Origin: Herpetosiphon giganteus
GTDB lineage: Bacteria > Chloroflexota > Chloroflexia > Chloroflexales > Herpetosiphonaceae
Length of the DNA: 64,000 bases
Assembly: GCF_016907925.1 (NCBI RefSeq)
Contig: NZ_JAFBCZ010000012.1
Coordinates: 62,001 to 126,000, forward strand
Direction of reading: 5' to 3'
The translations under genes and the position numbers were made by a program. This document shows positions 9,579 through 45,975 of the stretch, one piece after another. The notes below the pieces were generated by a model, which made no database searches, was not told where the DNA came from, and worked only from the letters and a program-made list of their open reading frames with translations. Within the stretch, counting starts at the first letter, position 1; each line of letters starts with the position of its first letter.

Positions 9579-9653
9579 AGGGGTGTAGGCTCAATGGTAA
9601 ACCGCTGGTCTCCAAAACCGGATTTCAGGGTTCGAATCCCTGCGCCCCTGCCA
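9579..9653 (+). tRNA. trnW: tRNA-Trp (anticodon CCA)
   Basis: A 75-base cloverleaf. Acceptor arms AGGGGTG and CGCCCCT pair with one G-U; the anticodon stem CTGGT/ACCGG encloses loop CTCCAAA with anticodon CCA; the T arm has GGTTCGAATCC. The discriminator is G and the 3' CCA (9651-9653) is encoded in the DNA. It stands alone with its own promoter and terminator. Confidence 0.97.
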
Positions 9654-12583: not shown

Positions 12584-13000
12584 GCAACGAGGGATGAGGT
12601 TTCAGGGATCAGGGGCTAGGGATTGGTATGTTGAAGCATCCCGTCGCCTCTGATCCCTTTTTTTTGATCCACGAAGGACACGAAGCGCATGAAGGCTAGG
12701 AACCGCGAAGAACGCGAAGCGTCACGAAGATTTATTTTTCGCCACAGATTAGCTAGATTATGTTCTTTTTAGCCACGAATTCCACGAATTGCACGAACAA
12801 GGTTCCGATAGCCAAAAGCCAAAAGCCTAGAGACTCATCGCGATTTTGACTTCTGACTTCTGACTTTTGACTTTTGCTCTCGCTTGGTTTTGTCACAATA
12901 GTTGGGCTGCTGTAAATGCTAGCGAAATGAGCGCGTGATAGTTGCGTGATAGCCTCAGTTTATGCTGCTGGGCATTGAATGTGTTGCTAAGGAGGGTTCC
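12584..13000. repeat. Intergenic region filled with dispersed repeats
   Basis: About 415 bases without a gene. It holds a GATCAGGGGCTAGGG-type G-rich repeat (12600-12625), the 9-nt-period repeat CCACGAAGGACACGAAG and ACCGCGAAGAACGCGAAG (12667-12735), a related CCACGAATTCCACGAATTG run (12773-12800), tandem GCCAAAA units (12810-12830) and tandem TGACTTC/TGACTTT units (12845-12880). The same families recur at many other gene borders in the window. The last 100 bases should hold the promoter of the next gene, but no strong boxes stand out. Confidence 0.75.
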
Positions 13001-16405: not shown

Positions 16406-16597
16406 CTTTTAATCACGAAGAGCACGAAGGCTAGGCTTAATTTTTATCCACGAAGGGCACGAAGAGCACGAATATTTCGATGTTTGGAAACTTGAATAGT
16501 GAATCTATTTCAGAGTTCCAATCAATGAAACCTTCGCGTAACTTCGCGTTCTTCGTGGTTCCATTCCCCCTGATCCCTAACCCCAAACCCCTGAACC
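16406..16597. repeat. Dispersed 9-nt-period repeats between convergent genes
   Basis: Between two convergent genes. Runs of CACGAAGAGCACGAAGG (16412-16432) and CCACGAAGGGCACGAAGAG (16449-16468) occur on one side and the inverted form CTTCGCGTTCTTCGTGG (16543-16560) on the other, followed by CCCTGATCCCTAACCCC-type repeats (16567-16597). The inverted arrangement could fold in the transcript and act as a two-way terminator. Confidence 0.65.
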
Positions 16598-25926: not shown

Positions 25927-26755
25927 ACTTTATTTTGGCGATAATCTGGCTGTTTTGGCGAGCCTGCCAGCAGCCAGCTATGATTTAATCTACATTGATC
26001 CGCCTTTCAACACTGGCAAAGTGCAAAGTCGCACCCAATTGCGTACCGTTCGTTCCGAGCATGGCGATCGGATTGGCTTTGGTGGGCATCGTTATAGCAG
26101 TATCAAAGTTGGCGAGCGGGCTTATGGCGATAGTTTTGATGATTTTCTGGCCTTTATTGAGCCACGTTTGCTCGAAGCCTACCGTTTGCTGAAGCCCCAA
26201 GGCAGTTTCTTTTTTCATATTGATTATCGTGAAGTACATTATTGCAAGGTGCTGCTCGACCAGATTTTTGGCCGCGATTCGTTTATCAACGAAATTATTT
26301 GGGCCTACGATTACGGCGCACGCTCGCGCAAAAAATGGTCAACCAAGCACGATACGATTCTGTGGTATGCCAAAGATCCAGAAAACTATACCTTTAATTA
26401 TGAGGCAATCGATCGCATTCCCTACATGGCTCCAGGTTTAGTTGGGCCTGAGAAGGCAGCGCGCGGTAAAACACCGACTGATGTCTGGTGGAACACGATT
26501 GTTAGCCCGAATGGCAAGGAAAAAACTGGCTACCCCACCCAAAAACCGCTCGCAATCCTCAACCGCATTGTGCGCGTGCACTCTAACCCCAACGATCAGG
26601 TGCTCGATTTTTTTGCAGGCAGTGGCTCGTTTGGCGAGGCCGCCGCACGCAATGGCCGCAATTTCACGCTGATCGATCAAAATCCCCAAGCAATCGAGGT
26701 AATGCGCCAACGCTTGGCTTTTGCCAACCCCGAATTTTATGAAGTACACCGTTAA
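25919..26755 (+). CDS. Solitary DNA N6-adenine (or N4-cytosine) methyltransferase, beta class
   Basis: A 278-residue enzyme. The catalytic motif DLIYIDPPFNTGK stands near residue 20 and the S-adenosylmethionine motif DFFAGSGSFGEAAARNG near residue 230, with YPTQKPLAILNRIV just before it; this IV-TRD-I order marks the beta class (CcrM/HinfI-like). The target recognition part between them cannot be read from sequence. No restriction endonuclease gene lies beside it, so a regulatory orphan role is likely. It is coupled to an HTH gene and a histidine kinase gene. The ATG at 25919 is chosen by overlap and by alignment of the MNKLYFGDNL start. Confidence 0.9.
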   Translation: MNKLYFGDNLAVLASLPAASYDLIYIDPPFNTGKVQSRTQLRTVRSEHGDRIGFGGHRYSSIKVGERAYGDSFDDFLAFIEPRLLEAYRLLKPQGSFFFHIDYREVHYCKVLLDQIFGRDSFINEIIWAYDYGARSRKKWSTKHDTILWYAKDPENYTFNYEAIDRIPYMAPGLVGPEKAARGKTPTDVWWNTIVSPNGKEKTGYPTQKPLAILNRIVRVHSNPNDQVLDFFAGSGSFGEAAARNGRNFTLIDQNPQAIEVMRQRLAFANPEFYEVHR

Positions 26756-27098
26756 CCGCGAAGAACGCGAAGGTACACGAAAGGCTATGGGCTGGAGGCT
26801 TTTGGAGATTGCTTGGAGCTACCAACACTTGTTCCGCTAGCCGAGAGCCTTATTCTTCGTGTTCTTCGTGGATCAAGCTTTTAACGCAGAGGCGCAGAGA
26901 AATTGAGGACAAAAGGTATGGGCTATTAGGAATTGATTTCAACATCACAACCCACTAGCCCATAACCAAATTAACCGCGAAGAACGCGAAGTTCCACTAA
27001 GGTTGGATTTTTTGGTTCTCTGAGGCTTGTACAAAACTCAGGTTTCCAATTAACCTAACATTCGTGCTCTTCGTGTCCTTCGTGGTTTAACTCAATAA
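26756..27098. repeat. Intergenic region with dispersed repeats
   Basis: About 340 bases between convergent genes with no gene. It contains ACCGCGAAGAACGCGAAGG at both 26755 and 26972, inverted CTTCGTGTTCTTCGTGG (26855-26871), the sequence TTTTAACGCAGAGGCGCAGAG (26879-26899) also present in the inverted-repeat element at 44829-44947, and an 83-base stretch (26797-26879) that is the reverse complement of 44998-45096 with few changes. It ends in another CTTCGTGTCCTTCGTGG run (27070-27086) next to the amylase stop. Confidence 0.75.
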
Positions 27099-29209: not shown

Positions 29210-29820
29210 CCAAAATTGGGCTAAAAATTTAGCTTTTTAATAATTTAGCTTATTCAGCTCATGGTGCGTCTTTTCATTCAAGGTTATGGTTGTTAATCAA
29301 GGATTGCAGTTCAGCATCAAGTGTTTGTCACCACCCTTCCGTCCCGCCTCAAGGCGGGAGACGCAGGGGTTTTCAGCCCCTGCACCCCAAATATTCATGT
29401 GTTGGAGTGTTGCTGTGCATCTTTACCCCCAAACTTCGTACTCTTCGTGGATCAAACCTTCGCGCTCTTCGCGCTCTTCGCGGTTCCAACCCCTAGCACC
29501 CCATCCCCGATCCCCAACCCCTGATTACTGACCCCTCGCTCACCACCCTCTGTTGCCAACCCCAATGATTTTCCGAGAGCCAAGAGCCTTCTCCCCTTCG
29601 TGTTCTTCGTGCTCTTCGTGGTTCCCGTTTATCCGGCCCCCAGCACCCGATCCCCGATCGCCAACCCCTAGCAGATTGTTGAGGCATTTTGTGACAATTG
29701 CCACAAAATAAGCAAAATGGTTGGCATTGGGGATAAAAACATGGCTAGGCTAATGCGAGCTAAGGCGATTTCTGCCCGTTACAAAGGGATTGAGCCTATT
29801 CTTGACTAATGTTAACAAGT

Positions 29821-39067: not shown

Positions 39068-40648
39068 ATGACCGAACGAGCCGTATTAAGTGAAGGCGAC
39101 ACTGTAGGCACTAATTTACATGTCAAGCAAGCCTATCGCAACTTAACGGTGCCGCAATTGGTGGAAGCTGCGCTCAAACGGGGCGAAGCCGTTTTATCGG
39201 CTACTGGGGCTGTTGTTGCCACCACGGGCGCACGCACGGGTCGTTCTGCAGATGATAAGTTTGTGGTGGAAACACCAGCAGCCGCGTCAATGCACTGGAC
39301 GAAATTCCATAAAGCTATGAAGCCCGAAACCTATGCCACGATCAAGGCCAAGGCGTTGGCGCACATGGCCGAACGTGAGATGTTTGTTTTAGATGCCAGC
39401 GCTGGCGCTGATCCAGCCTATGCGCTGCCAATTCGCGTGGTGACTGAATATGCTTGGCATAATTTGTTCGCCAAGCAATTGTTCCGCGATGCAATTAGCA
39501 ACGATCAACAACCACAATGGACGGTGCTCAATTTGCCAAGCCTGAAGCTTGATCCAGCGGTCGATGGCTCGCGCTCAGAAGTCGCCGCCATGATCAATCT
39601 CGATGAAAAATTGATTTTGATCGTTGGCACCGAATACGCTGGCGAGATCAAGAAATCGATCTTTACAGTGCTGAACATGGTCTTGCCAAGCCAAAACGTA
39701 ATGCCAATGCACTGCTCAGCCAATATTGGCAGCAAGGGCGATGTGGCCTTGTTCTTCGGCCTCTCGGGCACTGGCAAAACCACGCTCTCAGCCGACCCAG
39801 AACGGGTGCTGATTGGCGATGATGAGCATGGTTGGAGCGCCAACGGCGTGTTCAACTTTGAAGGCGGCTGCTATGCCAAGTGTATCCGCTTGCGCCGCGA
39901 ATCGGAGCCAGAAATTTTCGATGCAATTCGCTATGGGGCGGTGCTCGAAAACGTGGTGCTCAGCGATAGCCGCGATCCCAATTATGATGATGCGTCATTG
40001 ACCGAAAACACCCGCGCCGCCTATCCCTTGGAATTCATTCCCAACGTCAGCGAAACGGGTATGGGCGGCCAACCAGAAACGATCATCTTCTTGACCGCTG
40101 ATGCCTTTGGGGTTTTGCCGCCAATCGCTAAGCTCAGCCCTGAACAAGCGATGTACCACTTCTTGTCGGGCTATACCGCCAAGTTGGCAGGCACCGAAAC
40201 GGGCGTTGGCTCAGAGCCACAAGCAACGTTTAGCACCTGCTTTGGCGCACCGTTTATGCCATTGCATCCAACCGTGTACGCCGATTTGCTCGGCCAAAAA
40301 ATGCGCGAACACAAAGTGCGGGTATTTTTGGTCAACACTGGCTGGACTGGTGGTTCGTTCGGGGTTGGCAAGCGCATGAGCTTGCGCGATACTCGCACGA
40401 TGGTGCATGCCGCGTTGGCTGGCAAGCTCGATGATGTGGAAATGTGGCACGATGCTCGTTTCAACCTCGATGTGCCTGTGGCGATCGAAGGCGTTGATAA
40501 CAGCGTGCTGCAACCCCGCCAAACTTGGGCCGATGCCAGCGAATACGATCAAGTTGCCGATGACTTGGCCGCGCGCTTCCGCAAGAACTTCGAGCAATAC
40601 GCCGAACGCGCTGGCGAAACCGTGGTAAACGCTGGGCCACAAGCGTAG
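39068..40648 (+). CDS. pckA: Phosphoenolpyruvate carboxykinase (ATP)
   Basis: A 526-residue enzyme converting oxaloacetate and ATP to phosphoenolpyruvate, CO2 and ADP, the entry to gluconeogenesis. GARTGRSADDKFVV (substrate binding), the kinase-1 P-loop GLSGTGKTTLSADP near residue 232 and kinase-2 IGDDEHGW are present, marking the ATP-dependent form. An AAAGGAG site precedes the ATG. Downstream lies a palindromic element. Confidence 0.97.
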   Translation: MTERAVLSEGDTVGTNLHVKQAYRNLTVPQLVEAALKRGEAVLSATGAVVATTGARTGRSADDKFVVETPAAASMHWTKFHKAMKPETYATIKAKALAHMAEREMFVLDASAGADPAYALPIRVVTEYAWHNLFAKQLFRDAISNDQQPQWTVLNLPSLKLDPAVDGSRSEVAAMINLDEKLILIVGTEYAGEIKKSIFTVLNMVLPSQNVMPMHCSANIGSKGDVALFFGLSGTGKTTLSADPERVLIGDDEHGWSANGVFNFEGGCYAKCIRLRRESEPEIFDAIRYGAVLENVVLSDSRDPNYDDASLTENTRAAYPLEFIPNVSETGMGGQPETIIFLTADAFGVLPPIAKLSPEQAMYHFLSGYTAKLAGTETGVGSEPQATFSTCFGAPFMPLHPTVYADLLGQKMREHKVRVFLVNTGWTGGSFGVGKRMSLRDTRTMVHAALAGKLDDVEMWHDARFNLDVPVAIEGVDNSVLQPRQTWADASEYDQVADDLAARFRKNFEQYAERAGETVVNAGPQA

Positions 40649-40668
40649 GCTCTACAACCAAGTTTTGT

Positions 40669-40781
40669 AACCGCGAAGAACGCGAAGAGCACGAATGTTA
40701 GGTTTAGTGGTTCGCTGACATTTCTCCAATTATCAGAGAACCACTAAATTAGCCTTAGCGTCCTTCGCGTTCTTCGCGGTT
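40669..40781. repeat. 113-bp palindromic (MITE-like) element downstream of the CHAT gene
   Basis: The outer arms AACCGCGAAGAACGCGAAG (40669-40687) and its exact complement (40763-40781) are 19 bp. Inside, TTTAGTGGTTC and GAACCACTAAA form a second arm pair, so most of the element folds on itself. It lies between the convergent pckA and CHAT-protein genes and could serve both as terminator. The arms belong to the 9-nt-period repeat family. Confidence 0.7.
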
Positions 40782-40797
40782 AAATTACCCCTTATCC

Positions 40798-43700
40798 TTA
40801 TGGCTTTTCTGCCTTTTGACTTTTGCCTTCTGAATTGGCTTCCAGCTCCTCGAGCACCCGTAAGATCAACAATGCAATCTCTAGGCTTTTTATCTCAGCA
40901 CATAATGAATTCCAATCGCGCTCGCCTGCCCAGATGCGCTGAATGCTTGCTGGTACTTTGCCCCAATCGCCTTGCTGCATCTTCGGGAATTCTTGCTCGA
41001 CCGCAGCTCGCATTTCTTGATTGCCTTGGGTTGCTGTGACAATTGCTGCGATCAATTGCCCAAATTGTTGATCGATATGCCAGCGATTGGCGGCATGGGC
41101 AGTAAATGCTGTTTGTGCTTGCTGACGATACTCTGCTGCTGTCACTGCTTGGCCTGCTAGATTGGCTAAGTCGGCAAGGATGCTAAAAGATAACCATAAT
41201 GAAGCACTATTGGGATCAAGAGTTTGCTTGATTGCCAAGGCTTGTTCAGCATAGGCTTGAGCTTCGACTAAGCGGCTTGACGGCCATGCTCCAGCTTGGA
41301 TTTGATTAGCAATCAGATCAGCGAGATTATTGAGTGTTCCCGCCTGATAAAATGCTGGCAGATCAGGGGTTTGTAATACCCGTTGATACCAGCCCTCAGC
41401 CTCGCTTGGCTTGCCTGCTGATTCAGTCACGATTGCCAAATTATTACAGGTTTGCGCTACCCCAATGCTATCGCGCAAACCTTCGTGGATAGCCAGACTC
41501 TGGCGATAATGTTGCTCGGCGTTCGGCCAATCTTGTTGCTCTTCTGCAACTCTGCCCAGTTGATGATAGATCGTGGCTTCAGCACTTGGCGCGTTCAACT
41601 GCTGATAGATCTCTAGGGCTGCATCGTATTTTTGGGTGGCCTCAGCATACTGGCGCTGTTGCAACGCTAATGTCCCAAGTAACTCTAAATCTACTCCTTG
41701 ACTATGCAGATCATCAAGTGTTTTATCGATTTCTAGTCCTTGCTCATAACAACGCTTAGCCTCAGTAAATTGGCCTTGATCGCGGTGGCAATTGGCAAGA
41801 TCAGTCAATACTGCTGATTTCTGATGAAAATACATCTTGGCATCTGGTTGTTGGATGAGCAACTGTTCAATCATAGTTAATGCATGCTGCTGCACCTGCT
41901 GGGCTTGAGCCGGTTGGCCTAAGCGCAGTAAACAACGCCCAATTCGCGCAAGGGTTACACAATGCTCATAGGAGCCACGGCCACACGGCTGATCATCTGG
42001 CTGTTGCTCGATCCGCGCTAAAAGTTGCCCAAAGCGTTGGAGCGCTGCATCATAACGACCTTGAGCAAATTCAGCCTCACCAAGCCCAGTTTCATGTAAA
42101 AACTGGGCTTCGGAAAGCTGTTCTTTGATAACCATATGCTGGGCAAGTTGTTGATTGAGCAAATTGCGCTCGCGCTGCATACCAAAATTGTTATAAAACT
42201 TATTTAGGTTATCAGCCATATCTACTGCGGCATCAATCTCCTTTAAGCTTAATAACCCTTGGAGTGCCTTTTGCAGGTTGGGCAGTTCATAGCGCATCAA
42301 GGCTCGAACTGCTTGCGGGGTTTGGCGATCTTGCTCATAACAATATCTTGACAACTGGTAATAACGCACGGCAAAGCGTTGCTCTAGCTCAGTGCTAGTG
42401 GGGTGCTGCTGGCGCAAATAGGGCGTGAGAGTTGGATGAAAGTGCAAAAATGGCACGGTAATATTTTCAATTGCCACAGGCACAATTAATGCCGCATGCT
42501 CTAGGGCGGCGCGGAGTTGCTGCCATTGCTCGGCAGGAATCTCCGTAATAACAAGCAAATTTTCTTCTAACGTACCGCCTTCAAAGGGCGTGAGCATTGC
42601 TAGCCACTTACGCTGTTCCGAGCTGAGGCGTTGTAGCGAGTAGGTTAGCGAGGCTTCGAGCGAGCTATGGCGCGGGGTCGGGCTGTTTTCATCGGTGAAT
42701 TGGGCCAAGGCGCTGCTATAGTCGCTCAGCAGTTGCTCGATGCTCAAGTTGGGGTCGCGCAAGGCGCGTAGGGTCAAGCCCATCGCCAAGGGGTGATGAT
42801 CGAGCCGTGCCAATAGGCTGCTTAGTTGCAATTTTGGCGCACGCCGCCGATCAATCGCCAAATCATCGAGCAAGGCCGTGGCAAAGCTGTAGGCTGAGGG
42901 TGCATCCAAGCCGCGCATGGCAATCAGGCTGGTGTATTGGCCTTGCTGCAAGCGGCTATCACGCAAATCATAATCGCGGCAGGTCAAAATGATGCCTGCG
43001 CCTGCTTGCCGCAAGCCCAGCACACAATCCCACAAGGCTTGGCGTTCTTGGGCTTCCAACACATTTAGCTCAACATTACCCGCGTTGGGCAAAATGCTCT
43101 CCAAATTATCAGCGATAATTAGCAATGGCTTGTTGCGTAGGTGCGGCTTGAAGCGCTTTAAGGCTGCTTGTAAATCGTGCGAATCGGTTTCGGGCAACTC
43201 ATAATGGCGAGCAATCGCGCTGAGCAGGGCAATTTGGTTGCCGCCATGTTCAAACGAGAGCAGCAACGCGCCTTGATAGAGCTTGGTTTGGGTGAGCCAA
43301 GCGGCAGCTTCGCTGGCAAGGCGGGTTTTGCCAATGCCGCCAAAGCCATACAACAAGGCGATTTTGCCTTTCAGCAAAGCCCGTTCAAGCTGCAAAAGCT
43401 CTTTGGCGCGGCCAACAAACGGGCGTTGATGCGGGTTCTCAACAAAGCCCGAAAGCTTGGTCGGCTTGGGGCGCGGCGGCTTGCCGGTTGGGGTGAGATT
43501 GATCGCTGCTTGCTGATAAAAATGCGGCATCCACCAATCGGCTAAGCTAATTGGATCGGCGGTTTGCTCGGCATTGCGGGCGAGGTGCAGGCGCACGGGC
43601 TGACTTTGCAAGGCTTGGCGGGCGCGCTCCAAGGCTACAGGTACCGAATCACCTTTGGCGATCAAGCCATAGAATTCGCCAAAAAAGATCGCTGTCGTGA

Positions 43701-44724
43701 TGGGCAGCACGCTAGCGCTCATGGCCACCACCGCTGGCACGCCTGCCGTCAACAACTGGGTTGCTACGCTGCTCAACGCCTGTTGCTTTTGATACTCGGC
43801 ATCGTCGCTTGCACTCGTATCCATCACACTGGTTTGGCAGGCATCCAACAGCACCAAACGCACCCCTGCGCCATTCAACAACTCGGCAAAGCGCCGAGCC
43901 TCAACCGTATCAACCTGATAATCGGCTTTTTCAAACGATAAAACCCCTTGCGGCACGTTGGCTGATTTATAGAGCGTGCTGGTTGGCTGCATTTTGGGAA
44001 AGCCGCCATGACCATCGAAATGCAGAATATGTACGGGCTTGCTAGCATCTTGCAGGCGACGCGCCAGTTGATCATAGGTTGGCGGGCGCAAAAACTCCAA
44101 CTCGATCATGCCAGGCTTGAGTTTTTCAGTTTGTTCTAATTGCTGCAATTGCTCAAAAATCGTCTGGGCTGATGTTCGTGGATCAAGAAACCCTTGATCA
44201 TCAGGCCGTGCCACAACCACCAGCACTCGCAAAGGCATGGCAAATTCATCGACAATTGATTCTTCTTCTGCGATCGTAGGAATGGTTCGATAGATCGCAA
44301 CTGGGCTGCGCCGCCGTTGGTTCAAAAAGCCAAAATCATCGTGTAGCAATTCCCATGGCACGCTCAACACGGCGGGAATCACGCTTAAAATTTGCAAGGT
44401 TGGCACACCAGCATCAACCTGCATCCACTCAGCATAAATTTTGGCAGCGTTGGCACTTGATTCAAAAATTGCGGCAAAGAGCGCCTTGCCAACTGTGGCT
44501 AAATCGGCTTCAACTCGTGCGGCGCGTTCGCGAAACTCCAGAAATGGCCATTTCAGGTATTCTTCAAAATACCATTGAAAATCGGCGCGTTGCTGTTTGG
44601 TTGGTAGCTCAGGCAACGTGCCGTTGGCAGTCAGTTGATTGAAGCGCAACGTCCATTGGGCTAAATCGGGCGAATCAGGGGCGGCAGCGGTACATTCGAG
44701 GGTGAGGATGTTTGGTTGGCTCAT
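40798..44724 (-). CDS. CHAT protease-like domain fused to NB-ARC-type ATPase and TPR repeats
   Basis: A 1308-residue cytoplasmic protein. After a ~165-residue N-terminal region comes a CHAT (caspase-like) domain: ILHFDGHGGF with His239 and LVLLDACQTS with Cys296 form the expected catalytic dyad. Next is an NB-ARC/STAND ATPase with Walker A LLYGFGGIGKTRLA (Lys466), Walker B LLIIADN (Asp539) and sensor ILTCRDYDLR, a winged-helix-like stretch, then TPR repeats from about 840 to 1210 (YEQGLEIDK, YDAALEIYQQL, YRQSLAIHEGL). STAND proteins are switches that assemble on ligand binding; the TPR would sense and the CHAT part would cleave. A role in regulated death or phage defence is inferred. The last ~10 residues come from a dispersed repeat. 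Confidence 0.9.
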   Translation of the reverse strand: MSQPNILTLECTAAAPDSPDLAQWTLRFNQLTANGTLPELPTKQQRADFQWYFEEYLKWPFLEFRERAARVEADLATVGKALFAAIFESSANAAKIYAEWMQVDAGVPTLQILSVIPAVLSVPWELLHDDFGFLNQRRRSPVAIYRTIPTIAEEESIVDEFAMPLRVLVVVARPDDQGFLDPRTSAQTIFEQLQQLEQTEKLKPGMIELEFLRPPTYDQLARRLQDASKPVHILHFDGHGGFPKMQPTSTLYKSANVPQGVLSFEKADYQVDTVEARRFAELLNGAGVRLVLLDACQTSVMDTSASDDAEYQKQQALSSVATQLLTAGVPAVVAMSASVLPITTAIFFGEFYGLIAKGDSVPVALERARQALQSQPVRLHLARNAEQTADPISLADWWMPHFYQQAAINLTPTGKPPRPKPTKLSGFVENPHQRPFVGRAKELLQLERALLKGKIALLYGFGGIGKTRLASEAAAWLTQTKLYQGALLLSFEHGGNQIALLSAIARHYELPETDSHDLQAALKRFKPHLRNKPLLIIADNLESILPNAGNVELNVLEAQERQALWDCVLGLRQAGAGIILTCRDYDLRDSRLQQGQYTSLIAMRGLDAPSAYSFATALLDDLAIDRRRAPKLQLSSLLARLDHHPLAMGLTLRALRDPNLSIEQLLSDYSSALAQFTDENSPTPRHSSLEASLTYSLQRLSSEQRKWLAMLTPFEGGTLEENLLVITEIPAEQWQQLRAALEHAALIVPVAIENITVPFLHFHPTLTPYLRQQHPTSTELEQRFAVRYYQLSRYCYEQDRQTPQAVRALMRYELPNLQKALQGLLSLKEIDAAVDMADNLNKFYNNFGMQRERNLLNQQLAQHMVIKEQLSEAQFLHETGLGEAEFAQGRYDAALQRFGQLLARIEQQPDDQPCGRGSYEHCVTLARIGRCLLRLGQPAQAQQVQQHALTMIEQLLIQQPDAKMYFHQKSAVLTDLANCHRDQGQFTEAKRCYEQGLEIDKTLDDLHSQGVDLELLGTLALQQRQYAEATQKYDAALEIYQQLNAPSAEATIYHQLGRVAEEQQDWPNAEQHYRQSLAIHEGLRDSIGVAQTCNNLAIVTESAGKPSEAEGWYQRVLQTPDLPAFYQAGTLNNLADLIANQIQAGAWPSSRLVEAQAYAEQALAIKQTLDPNSASLWLSFSILADLANLAGQAVTAAEYRQQAQTAFTAHAANRWHIDQQFGQLIAAIVTATQGNQEMRAAVEQEFPKMQQGDWGKVPASIQRIWAGERDWNSLCAEIKSLEIALLILRVLEELEANSEGKSQKAEKP

Positions 44725-44828
44725 AGGGTGGCTCCTCGGCTAGCAACACAGCCTTATCCTATCATGGCCTAACCGCGAATGGTAGCCTACGAGCAGCACA
44801 AGTTTTGATCCACGATACCTGAAATAGC

Positions 44829-44947
44829 AGTTTAACGCAGAGGCGCAGAGAAACGATGTTTTGGTAGTGAGCACAACAGCATTTTGTTAAATGCAACGTG
44901 CTGTTCTGCTGCTCAACAAACAATGCTTTGCGCCTCTGCGTTAAACT
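44829..44947. repeat. 119-bp inverted-repeat (MITE-like) element upstream of the CHAT gene
   Basis: Perfect 19-bp arms AGTTTAACGCAGAGGCGCA (44829-44847) and complement (44929-44947) flank a core that itself contains GAGCA-CAACAGCA and a bulged complement, so the whole element can fold into one hairpin. One arm recurs alone at 26879-26899. No transposase is nearby and no target-site duplication is obvious. Confidence 0.75.
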
Positions 44948-45193
44948 TTCGCAAATCTTCGGGTAGCTTCGCGTTCTTCGCGGTTACGAAATACGTTTTG
45001 ATCCACGAAGGACACGAAGAGCACGAAAAATAAGGCTCTAGGCTCTCGGCTATCGGAACAAGTGTTGGTATTTGCAAGCAATCTCCGAAAGCCCAAAGCC
45101 AATAGCCCTTCGGGTAGCTTCGCGTTCTTCGCGGTTAAAAATAACATTCCTTGCCCCTTGCCCCTGAATCCTGACCCCTCATTCAGACACTCC

Positions 45194-45228: not shown

Positions 45229-45975
45229 ATGCAAACAGTTATTCTCGATCAGCAACAATTGAATTCGCACTATGGCTTGCTGACTGTGGCCTCGCCGCAA
45301 CTTGCCAGCGCGCAGCCAGGCCAATGGGCAATGCTGCATCACGGCTTGGGCAACGACCCATTCTTGCGTAGCCGCGCTTGGATTATTGCGACCAATCGTA
45401 GTAGCACCGCTACTTTGGCCTTGGATTTGCACGACCCACTCTTGGCGACGATTGCGCGTATGCCCAAATCCAGCGAGCTTGATGTGCTTGGGCCGTTGGG
45501 TCGACCGCTGAGCAGCGATGGCCAAAAAGCAACGTTGCTGATTGCTGAGGGCAATGCAATCTATAGCATGTTGTTCTATGCCCAACGCATTAGCGAAACC
45601 GGCGCGCCTGTGCTGTTGCTGGCCAGCGCCAGCGACGAGTTGCGCGTGCCGCCATTTGTGCTACCAGCAGAGATTGAATATTTGGCAACCAGCGACGATG
45701 TGCTTGATTTGCTGGAAAGTAGCGGCAAACTTGATTCGCCGTTGGTTTGGGCCAATCGCTTGTTAGCTGCAGGCAGTGTCGATTTGGCGAATCGGTTGAG
45801 CCAACGCATTCGCCGCGAGCGCTATGCTTGGCAACAAGGCTTTGCCGCATTTATCGTCGATCAGCCCTACCCGTGCGGAATTGGCATGTGTGGCGCGTGT
45901 TGGCAAAATACTCGCCAGCAGCCAAAATTGTTGTGTAGCCATGGCCCAGCGCTTGATCTGCGCGAATTGATCTAA
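45229..45975 (+). CDS. PyrK-like dihydroorotate dehydrogenase electron-transfer subunit
   Basis: A 248-residue protein with a ferredoxin-reductase-like FAD/NAD fold and a C-terminal 2Fe-2S site whose cysteines are spaced C-x4-C-x2-C-x11-C (PCGIGMCGACW ... LLC), as in PyrK. PyrK passes electrons from dihydroorotate dehydrogenase B to NAD. No pyrD lies beside it, so a relative serving another partner is possible. The start is probably leaderless. Confidence 0.78.
   Translation: MQTVILDQQQLNSHYGLLTVASPQLASAQPGQWAMLHHGLGNDPFLRSRAWIIATNRSSTATLALDLHDPLLATIARMPKSSELDVLGPLGRPLSSDGQKATLLIAEGNAIYSMLFYAQRISETGAPVLLLASASDELRVPPFVLPAEIEYLATSDDVLDLLESSGKLDSPLVWANRLLAAGSVDLANRLSQRIRRERYAWQQGFAAFIVDQPYPCGIGMCGACWQNTRQQPKLLCSHGPALDLRELI

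Follow-up and report, generated by a model that had tools for sequence, protein, structure and literature searches.

The stretch of DNA analysed here (the window) comprises 64,000 nucleotides of the 6.16-Mb draft genome of Herpetosiphon giganteus (G000), positions 62001-126000 of contig C12. It was compared with Herpetosiphon congeners, labelled G001-G005, and with a sample of 151 Chloroflexota genomes, outside which G002 lies. Genes were called as plain longest open reading frames, repeat families were defined by regular expressions of our own making, and the counts below are approximate. At the locus of interest, a large gene encoding a CHAT-domain protein lies between a PEPCK gene and a DHODB gene, and palindromic repeats occupy the spacers on both sides:

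39068-40648, plus strand: PEPCK, the constant left neighbour in all six Herpetosiphon genomes
40669-40781, no strand: element A, a 113-bp palindrome with arms AACCGCGAAGAACGCGAAG and an inner hairpin
40798-44724, minus strand: CHAT - AAA/NTPase - TPR protein of 1308 aa (open reading frame and domain match)
44805-44828, no strand: left remnant of the A-type element that hosts B, TTGATCCACGA..., a site also compared in relatives
44829-44947, no strand: element B, a 119-bp palindrome with arms AGTTTAACGCAGAGGCGCA
44957-44987, no strand: right A-type arm past B, ending CTTCGCGTTCTTCGCGGTTA
44998-45139, no strand: second complete A-type element with a different core, in the spacer from CHAT to the DHODB-like gene (match to R1 with 66.1 bits on one strand and 54.0 on the other)
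45229-45975, plus strand: DHODB Fe-S domain protein, the right neighbour here, which directly adjoins PEPCK in G004 and G005

The CHAT domain was verified (PF12770, E 4e-20) and is followed by an AAA/NTPase region and then by TPRs, the same regions as in CHAT-domain NTPase-TPR (STAND-like) proteins. The protein carries the motifs HFDGHGG and DACQTS, which we take to be the His and Cys motifs of the CHAT protease type. A search with PADLOC matched the gene to no named defence system, only to a TPR model. The TPR-rich C-terminal part (window 40798-42120), the last third of the gene, diverges much faster between congeners (71-81% identity) than the CHAT/NTPase part, a pattern as expected for a variable sensor. 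An Rfam scan of the window returned a single tRNA (9579-9650) and no family match for either palindrome, and there was no match to plasmid records at E 0.01.

Element A occupies the gap in which PEPCK and CHAT converge, starting 20 bases beyond the PEPCK stop and ending 16 bases before the 3' end of the CHAT open reading frame. Its outer 19 bp pair perfectly, positions 40668 and 40782 pair too, and the inner hairpin spans 40703-40748. Element B, also with perfect 19-bp arms, lies upstream of CHAT, with 104 bases between it and the start codon. Calculated folding energies on the two strands are -61.9 and -62.9 kcal/mol for A (z -9.2 and -10.8) and -62.3 and -58.1 kcal/mol for B (z -8.7 and -8.0), and none of 200 shuffles was as stable as A or B on the strands for which the comparison is reported. 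An earlier note on this DNA had described two palindromes bracketing the CHAT gene, and in this it was right: the coordinates and perfect outer arms hold, and both elements fold strongly on both strands. B is, moreover, nested in a damaged A element, with A-type remnants on either side at about 44805-44828 and 44957-44987. Because B interrupts an A-type element and a further A element follows at 44998-45139, the CHAT gene is flanked on both sides by A-type repeats, with B as an extra.

Both palindromes belong to repeat families. Matches to the A-arm pattern ACCRCGAAGNNCRCGAAG number 391 in G000, 378 in G004, 320 in G005, 154 in G001 and 145 in G003, and the reversed pattern has none in any of these five genomes. 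Beyond Herpetosiphon, 18 of the 146 other Chloroflexota genomes sampled have any match, with a maximum of 20. Most A elements end in TTAACC..GGTTAA. Searching G000 with element A gave at least 61 matches, mostly to a single arm of ~27-37 bp, with 40 of 290 candidates scored; searching with B gave at least 45, again mostly single arms, with 40 of 219 scored, and these included no other copy of the full B core. Full-length A elements whose core is close to that at 40669 seem to be few in G000: a covariance-model search (150 of 3688 candidates scored) placed at least three sites above 95 bits, all on C12 and within 25 kb. Further members of the A family in the window include:

12670-12729, plus strand: A-type arms bordering a segment inverted with respect to G004
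16443-16563, no strand: A element 3' of a gene for a 1147-aa protein
26751-26876, no strand: A-type element with another core
26970-27090, no strand: A element near an alpha-amylase gene, the full-length copy most like element A in G000 among the scored candidates

The placement of the repeats was examined across 1.42 Mb from five congeners, 89% of which was called coding. Of the 145 A-arm clusters found here, 127 lie between genes, and A arms within 160 bp of each other mostly face inwards (>< 25, >> 10, <> 4, << 3), as do 31 of 36 such neighbours among arms of a third family, C. B arms numbered 23, mostly solo, with one inward-facing pair within 160 bp; element B is a rare pairing of usually solitary arms. 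The density of A arms is 1.60 per kb between convergent genes, versus 0.60 between co-directional and 0.65 between divergent ones. A arms adjoin genes of every kind: on C12 they lie on both sides of 5 of 121 genes (GAPDH, beta-propeller, alpha-amylase, CHAT and ABC1-kinase), and across five contigs on both sides of 19 of 1021 genes, or 26 of 1021 when A, B and C are taken together. The A and B palindromes are not CHAT-specific and have no specific tie to this gene. The C repeats (CCCTCACCCC..CCCCTCTCCC..GGGAGAGGGG..GGTGAGGG) occur as inverted pairs at L030:5931-6060, L032:6085-6210, G000 C12 3770-3915 and in many other spacers. Further repeats seen in spacers (window 12604-12658, 29310-29400 and 12800-12880) are GGGATCAGGGG heptads, CACCACCCTTCCGTCCCGCCTCAAGGCGGGA, GACTTTTGACTTTTG and GGATGAAGGATGAA heptads, and CCACAGATT units.

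In an alignment of 11 A elements, standard pairs make up 94.3% of the paired cells; 12 cells are changed on both sides, a number that 3 of 500 shuffles reach, and the covariation score of the alignment is reached by none of 500. Five pairs show two-sided change, a count reached by 68 of 500 shuffles, and as the alignment also contains orthologues, the covariation support for A is moderate. Core folding was assessed for 21 of 25 A pairs, cores shorter than 25 bases being left out in the other four, and compared with 80 qualifying intergenic pieces, chosen randomly as controls. The cores of 13 of the 21 A pairs had z below -2, versus 8 of the 80 controls, and mean z was -2.5 for A pairs, -4.6 for C pairs (n = 31) and -0.4 for controls. 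One G005 copy (L034:6107-6222) differs from window 40669-40781 in that its central loop faces the other way relative to the arms, which may be a sign of flipping or exchange within the palindrome.

The locus itself differs among congeners. CHAT is present beside PEPCK in four of six Herpetosiphon genomes (G000-G003) and absent from G004 and G005. In G001, G002 and G003 PEPCK is followed by a CHAT protein with 80-84% amino-acid identity to that of the window. In G004 and G005 PEPCK is followed by DHODB, with only A elements and remnants between them: two tandem A elements plus remnants in G004 and one A element in G005. In the PEPCK-CHAT spacer of G001 and G003 a C repeat takes the place of half the A element. 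Upstream of CHAT, after A-type repeats, comes a mutS-like gene in G001 and a folK-like stretch in G002 and G003 (named by eye), and the DHODB-ALDH pair of G002 and G003 lies about 163-170 kb off in the opposite orientation. A single inversion was considered for the G002/G003 arrangement and set aside, since on the G000 contig the folK block points the same way and several steps would be needed. Three genomes from outside the genus but within the family show no match to CHAT, DHODB or ALDH beside PEPCK; in one of them the sequence stops ~2 kb past PEPCK.

Changes of gene order are associated with these repeats more widely. Across five contigs, A, B or C repeats occur at 28 of 61 broken versus 96 of 548 conserved gene adjacencies (Fisher p 2e-6), and A alone at 21 of 61 versus 65 of 548; the comparison covered spacers of 40 bp to 4 kb and orthologue pairs at most four genes apart. 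Divided by spacer length, the p value was 0.54 for 40-200 bp, 0.07 for 200-400 bp and 0.01 for over 400 bp. Because the same loci recur across genome pairs these values are indicative, and longer spacers also hold more repeats. On C12, two ends of inversions between G000 and G004 lie within spacers containing A arms, and on the G004 side A arms are found either at the ends or no more than ~110 bp away. The edges of three smaller indels (738, 924 and 547 bp) are free of A, B and C repeats. Spacer content turns over fast between congeners, and orthologous spacers mostly hold different repeats.

How the palindromes came to lie around CHAT can be read in several ways. If CHAT and its frame of A and B moved together, as the earlier note had proposed in suggesting a mobile cassette, the presence of the gene at this place in four of six congeners with its edges within repeats would follow. 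Full-length relatives of this CHAT elsewhere, however, number four (one at G003 C29, two at G003 C38 and one at G004 C8, with identities of 79, 71 and 68% in G003 and 73% in G004), and A, B or C arms were found at none of them in the loci of 9.7, 19 and 14 kb examined, so the palindromes do not travel with CHAT. A elements also stay at the PEPCK locus where CHAT is missing, and together with the repeat-free relatives this indicates that gene and palindromes move separately. Among the other CHAT genes of G000, 2 of 11 have A, B or C arms in adjoining gaps (two of the 11 lie near a contig end), and the G000 candidates scored with B contained no second full-length palindrome of that kind. A cassette is thus extremely improbable, and the expectation that gene and palindromes come and go together is not borne out, though presence and absence of the gene at the locus is itself seen. 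Of the two contrary signs named at that time, elements near all kinds of genes are what we find for A, whereas a locus syntenic in all relatives is not. That note also suggested insulators, for which no result here speaks, and terminators; in a bidirectional form of the latter reading, A would end convergent PEPCK and CHAT transcription and B would act in the CHAT upstream region. A does lie between two stop codons, and A arms are densest between convergent genes, but no T run follows either hairpin, a terminator scan marks neither A nor B, and the same-site spacers of congeners carry different repeats. Enrichment at 3' ends would also be expected if selection acts against insertions near promoters, and we hold termination to be quite improbable.

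Transposition offers two further readings. A (and B) may be MITE-like, non-autonomous elements whose 19-20-bp terminal repeats are acted on by a transposase, DDE or other, with B having jumped into an A element. Like MITEs, A and B are short and intergenic, with terminal inverted repeats that are perfect; B interrupts an A-type element, and C replaces half an A element in G001 and G003. Since most A ends read TTAACC..GGTTAA, a TA or TTAA duplication would hide inside the palindrome, which we count in favour of this reading. However, direct repeats of at least 4 bp flank none of 25 A elements and only one of 31 C elements, the five contigs hold no clean empty site, and no parent transposon was found, with nine genes sampled from spaces bracketed by A clusters including no transposases. 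Of the features of a MITE, the terminal inverted repeats stand and a target duplication of that length does not, and we consider this origin unlikely. The other reading is that the repeats were spread by a Y1 (HuH) REP-associated transposase since lost from G000. Y1_Tnp (PF01797) occurs in 60 of the 151 Chloroflexota genomes sampled, in 9 of 9 non-Herpetosiphon genomes with at least two A-arm matches and in 11 of 18 with any match. It is, however, absent from G000 and G005 despite their 391 and 320 arms, the Y1 loci of G001, G003 (twice) and G004 lack A arms within the 6-8 kb examined, and by inspection the Y1 match adjoins a TnpB-like open reading frame in G001 and at G003 C9. By eye, moreover, no GTAG or CGTC tag stands at the foot of 25 A elements, and we judge a lost transposase of this kind very improbable.

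The closest known systems include REP-like repeats. The A family resembles the REP/REPIN sequences associated with RAYTs, as described in the portions available of PMC3116915 and PMC3733652, in consisting of short palindromic intergenic repeats in hundreds of copies with paired inverted units. It differs from them in lacking the GTAG/CGTC tag, in the lack of Y1 in G000, and in having longer paired units (57-141 bp) with variable cores. A has the features of the broad REP-like class, namely many copies, intergenic position and the capacity to form hairpins. Untagged REP-like families are a recognised open class, with a cyanobacterial case credited to Elhai et al. 2008 in the available part of PMC3733652; as with A, they are palindromic and repeated and have no terminal tag. 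A is another sequence family, and that part of the paper does not mention Herpetosiphon. By eye, the Herpetosiphon C repeats match the BoxC/PIT/TMECO intrastrand triplex motif and likewise form inverted pairs (Holder et al. 2015, PMC4666352, as far as available); A and B differ from the motif in sequence. The same portion of that paper links the motif to local genomic instability. A title search, whose coverage mostly excludes subscription journals, found no publications naming A or B repeats, and six literal arm strings retrieved only an unrelated fish eDNA paper. In the available text of the H. aurantiacus genome paper (PMC3368417) the word 'palindrom' is absent, and the A and B families are unnamed in the parts available of PMC3368417, PMC3733652 and PMC4666352.

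We regard A and B as probably being untagged REP-like intergenic repeats that act as sites of recombination and breakage, and probably neither insulators nor the frame of a mobile cassette. Similar copies flanking a segment could undergo RecA-type recombination or replication template switching, leading to deletion or rearrangement of what lies between, a mechanism suggested by its products only. Recombination of this kind at the locus might have left CHAT missing between PEPCK and DHODB, with two tandem A elements remaining in G004 and one in G005, and might have joined CHAT to other genes in G001-G003. Most of what was observed is explained in ordinary terms, and the locus is genuinely polymorphic and repeat-rich. 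The earlier interpretation of the palindromes holds in part: the CHAT locus is polymorphic, and its edges lie in these repeats, as do rearrangement breakpoints. The results speak against terminators and a mobile cassette. Where the spacers of a genome teem with such repeats, finding a gene between paired palindromes says little for a cassette. A bolder proposal, which we hold to be unlikely, is that an undescribed and still active set of hairpins (A with arm swaps and loop flips, B, and the BoxC-like C) spreads without a RAYT and provides standing recombination sites, with loci such as PEPCK-CHAT-DHODB as exchange points that gain and lose fast-evolving CHAT/NTPase/TPR genes. Should the link to breakpoints prove true across the whole genome, Herpetosiphon would lend itself well to the study of how palindromic repeats of the untagged kind spread and affect gene order without a resident RAYT.

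The direction of change at the locus can be approached through gene identities. For the first third of CHAT, identity is 85-88% when G000 is compared with G001-G003 and 91-92% within the latter group, and the corresponding values for DHODB-ALDH are 88% and 95%. Vertical inheritance is thus suggested for the first part of CHAT, a point in favour of loss in G004 and G005. For DHODB-ALDH, G000 and G004 are 96.4% and G004 and G005 95.0% identical; as G000 and G004 are closest, the loss reading needs two losses or exchange. In the last 700 bp of PEPCK, G000 agrees with the G001-G003 clade at 5 of 5 cleanly separating sites, which would fit a gain of CHAT in G000 by recombination, and a separate site-pattern comparison of the same end gave a mixed result. 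Judging from these sequence comparisons, a gain of CHAT by G000, in place of its loss from G004 and G005, is a possible history.

Several minor features were seen around CHAT genes in the congeners. The PEPCK-locus copies of G003 (L187, G003 C10) and G002 (L188, G002 C8) contain one stop each, so these copies may be decaying or may have a shifted start or end. Among the CHAT relatives elsewhere (L190, L191 and L192, that is, G003 C29, G003 C38 and G004 C8), the first of the C38 pair (C38a) and that of G004 C8 have in common a small upstream coding stretch, of 137 aa in L192 and without a Pfam match. In G001, an IS605-type insertion outside the window, in which a Y1 match with an internal stop accompanies a TnpB-like open reading frame, lies a few kb from ALDH (L085, C1 6042500-6050500). 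G003 carries two of the CHAT relatives in tandem, and a NERD-helicase gene adjoins this tandem.
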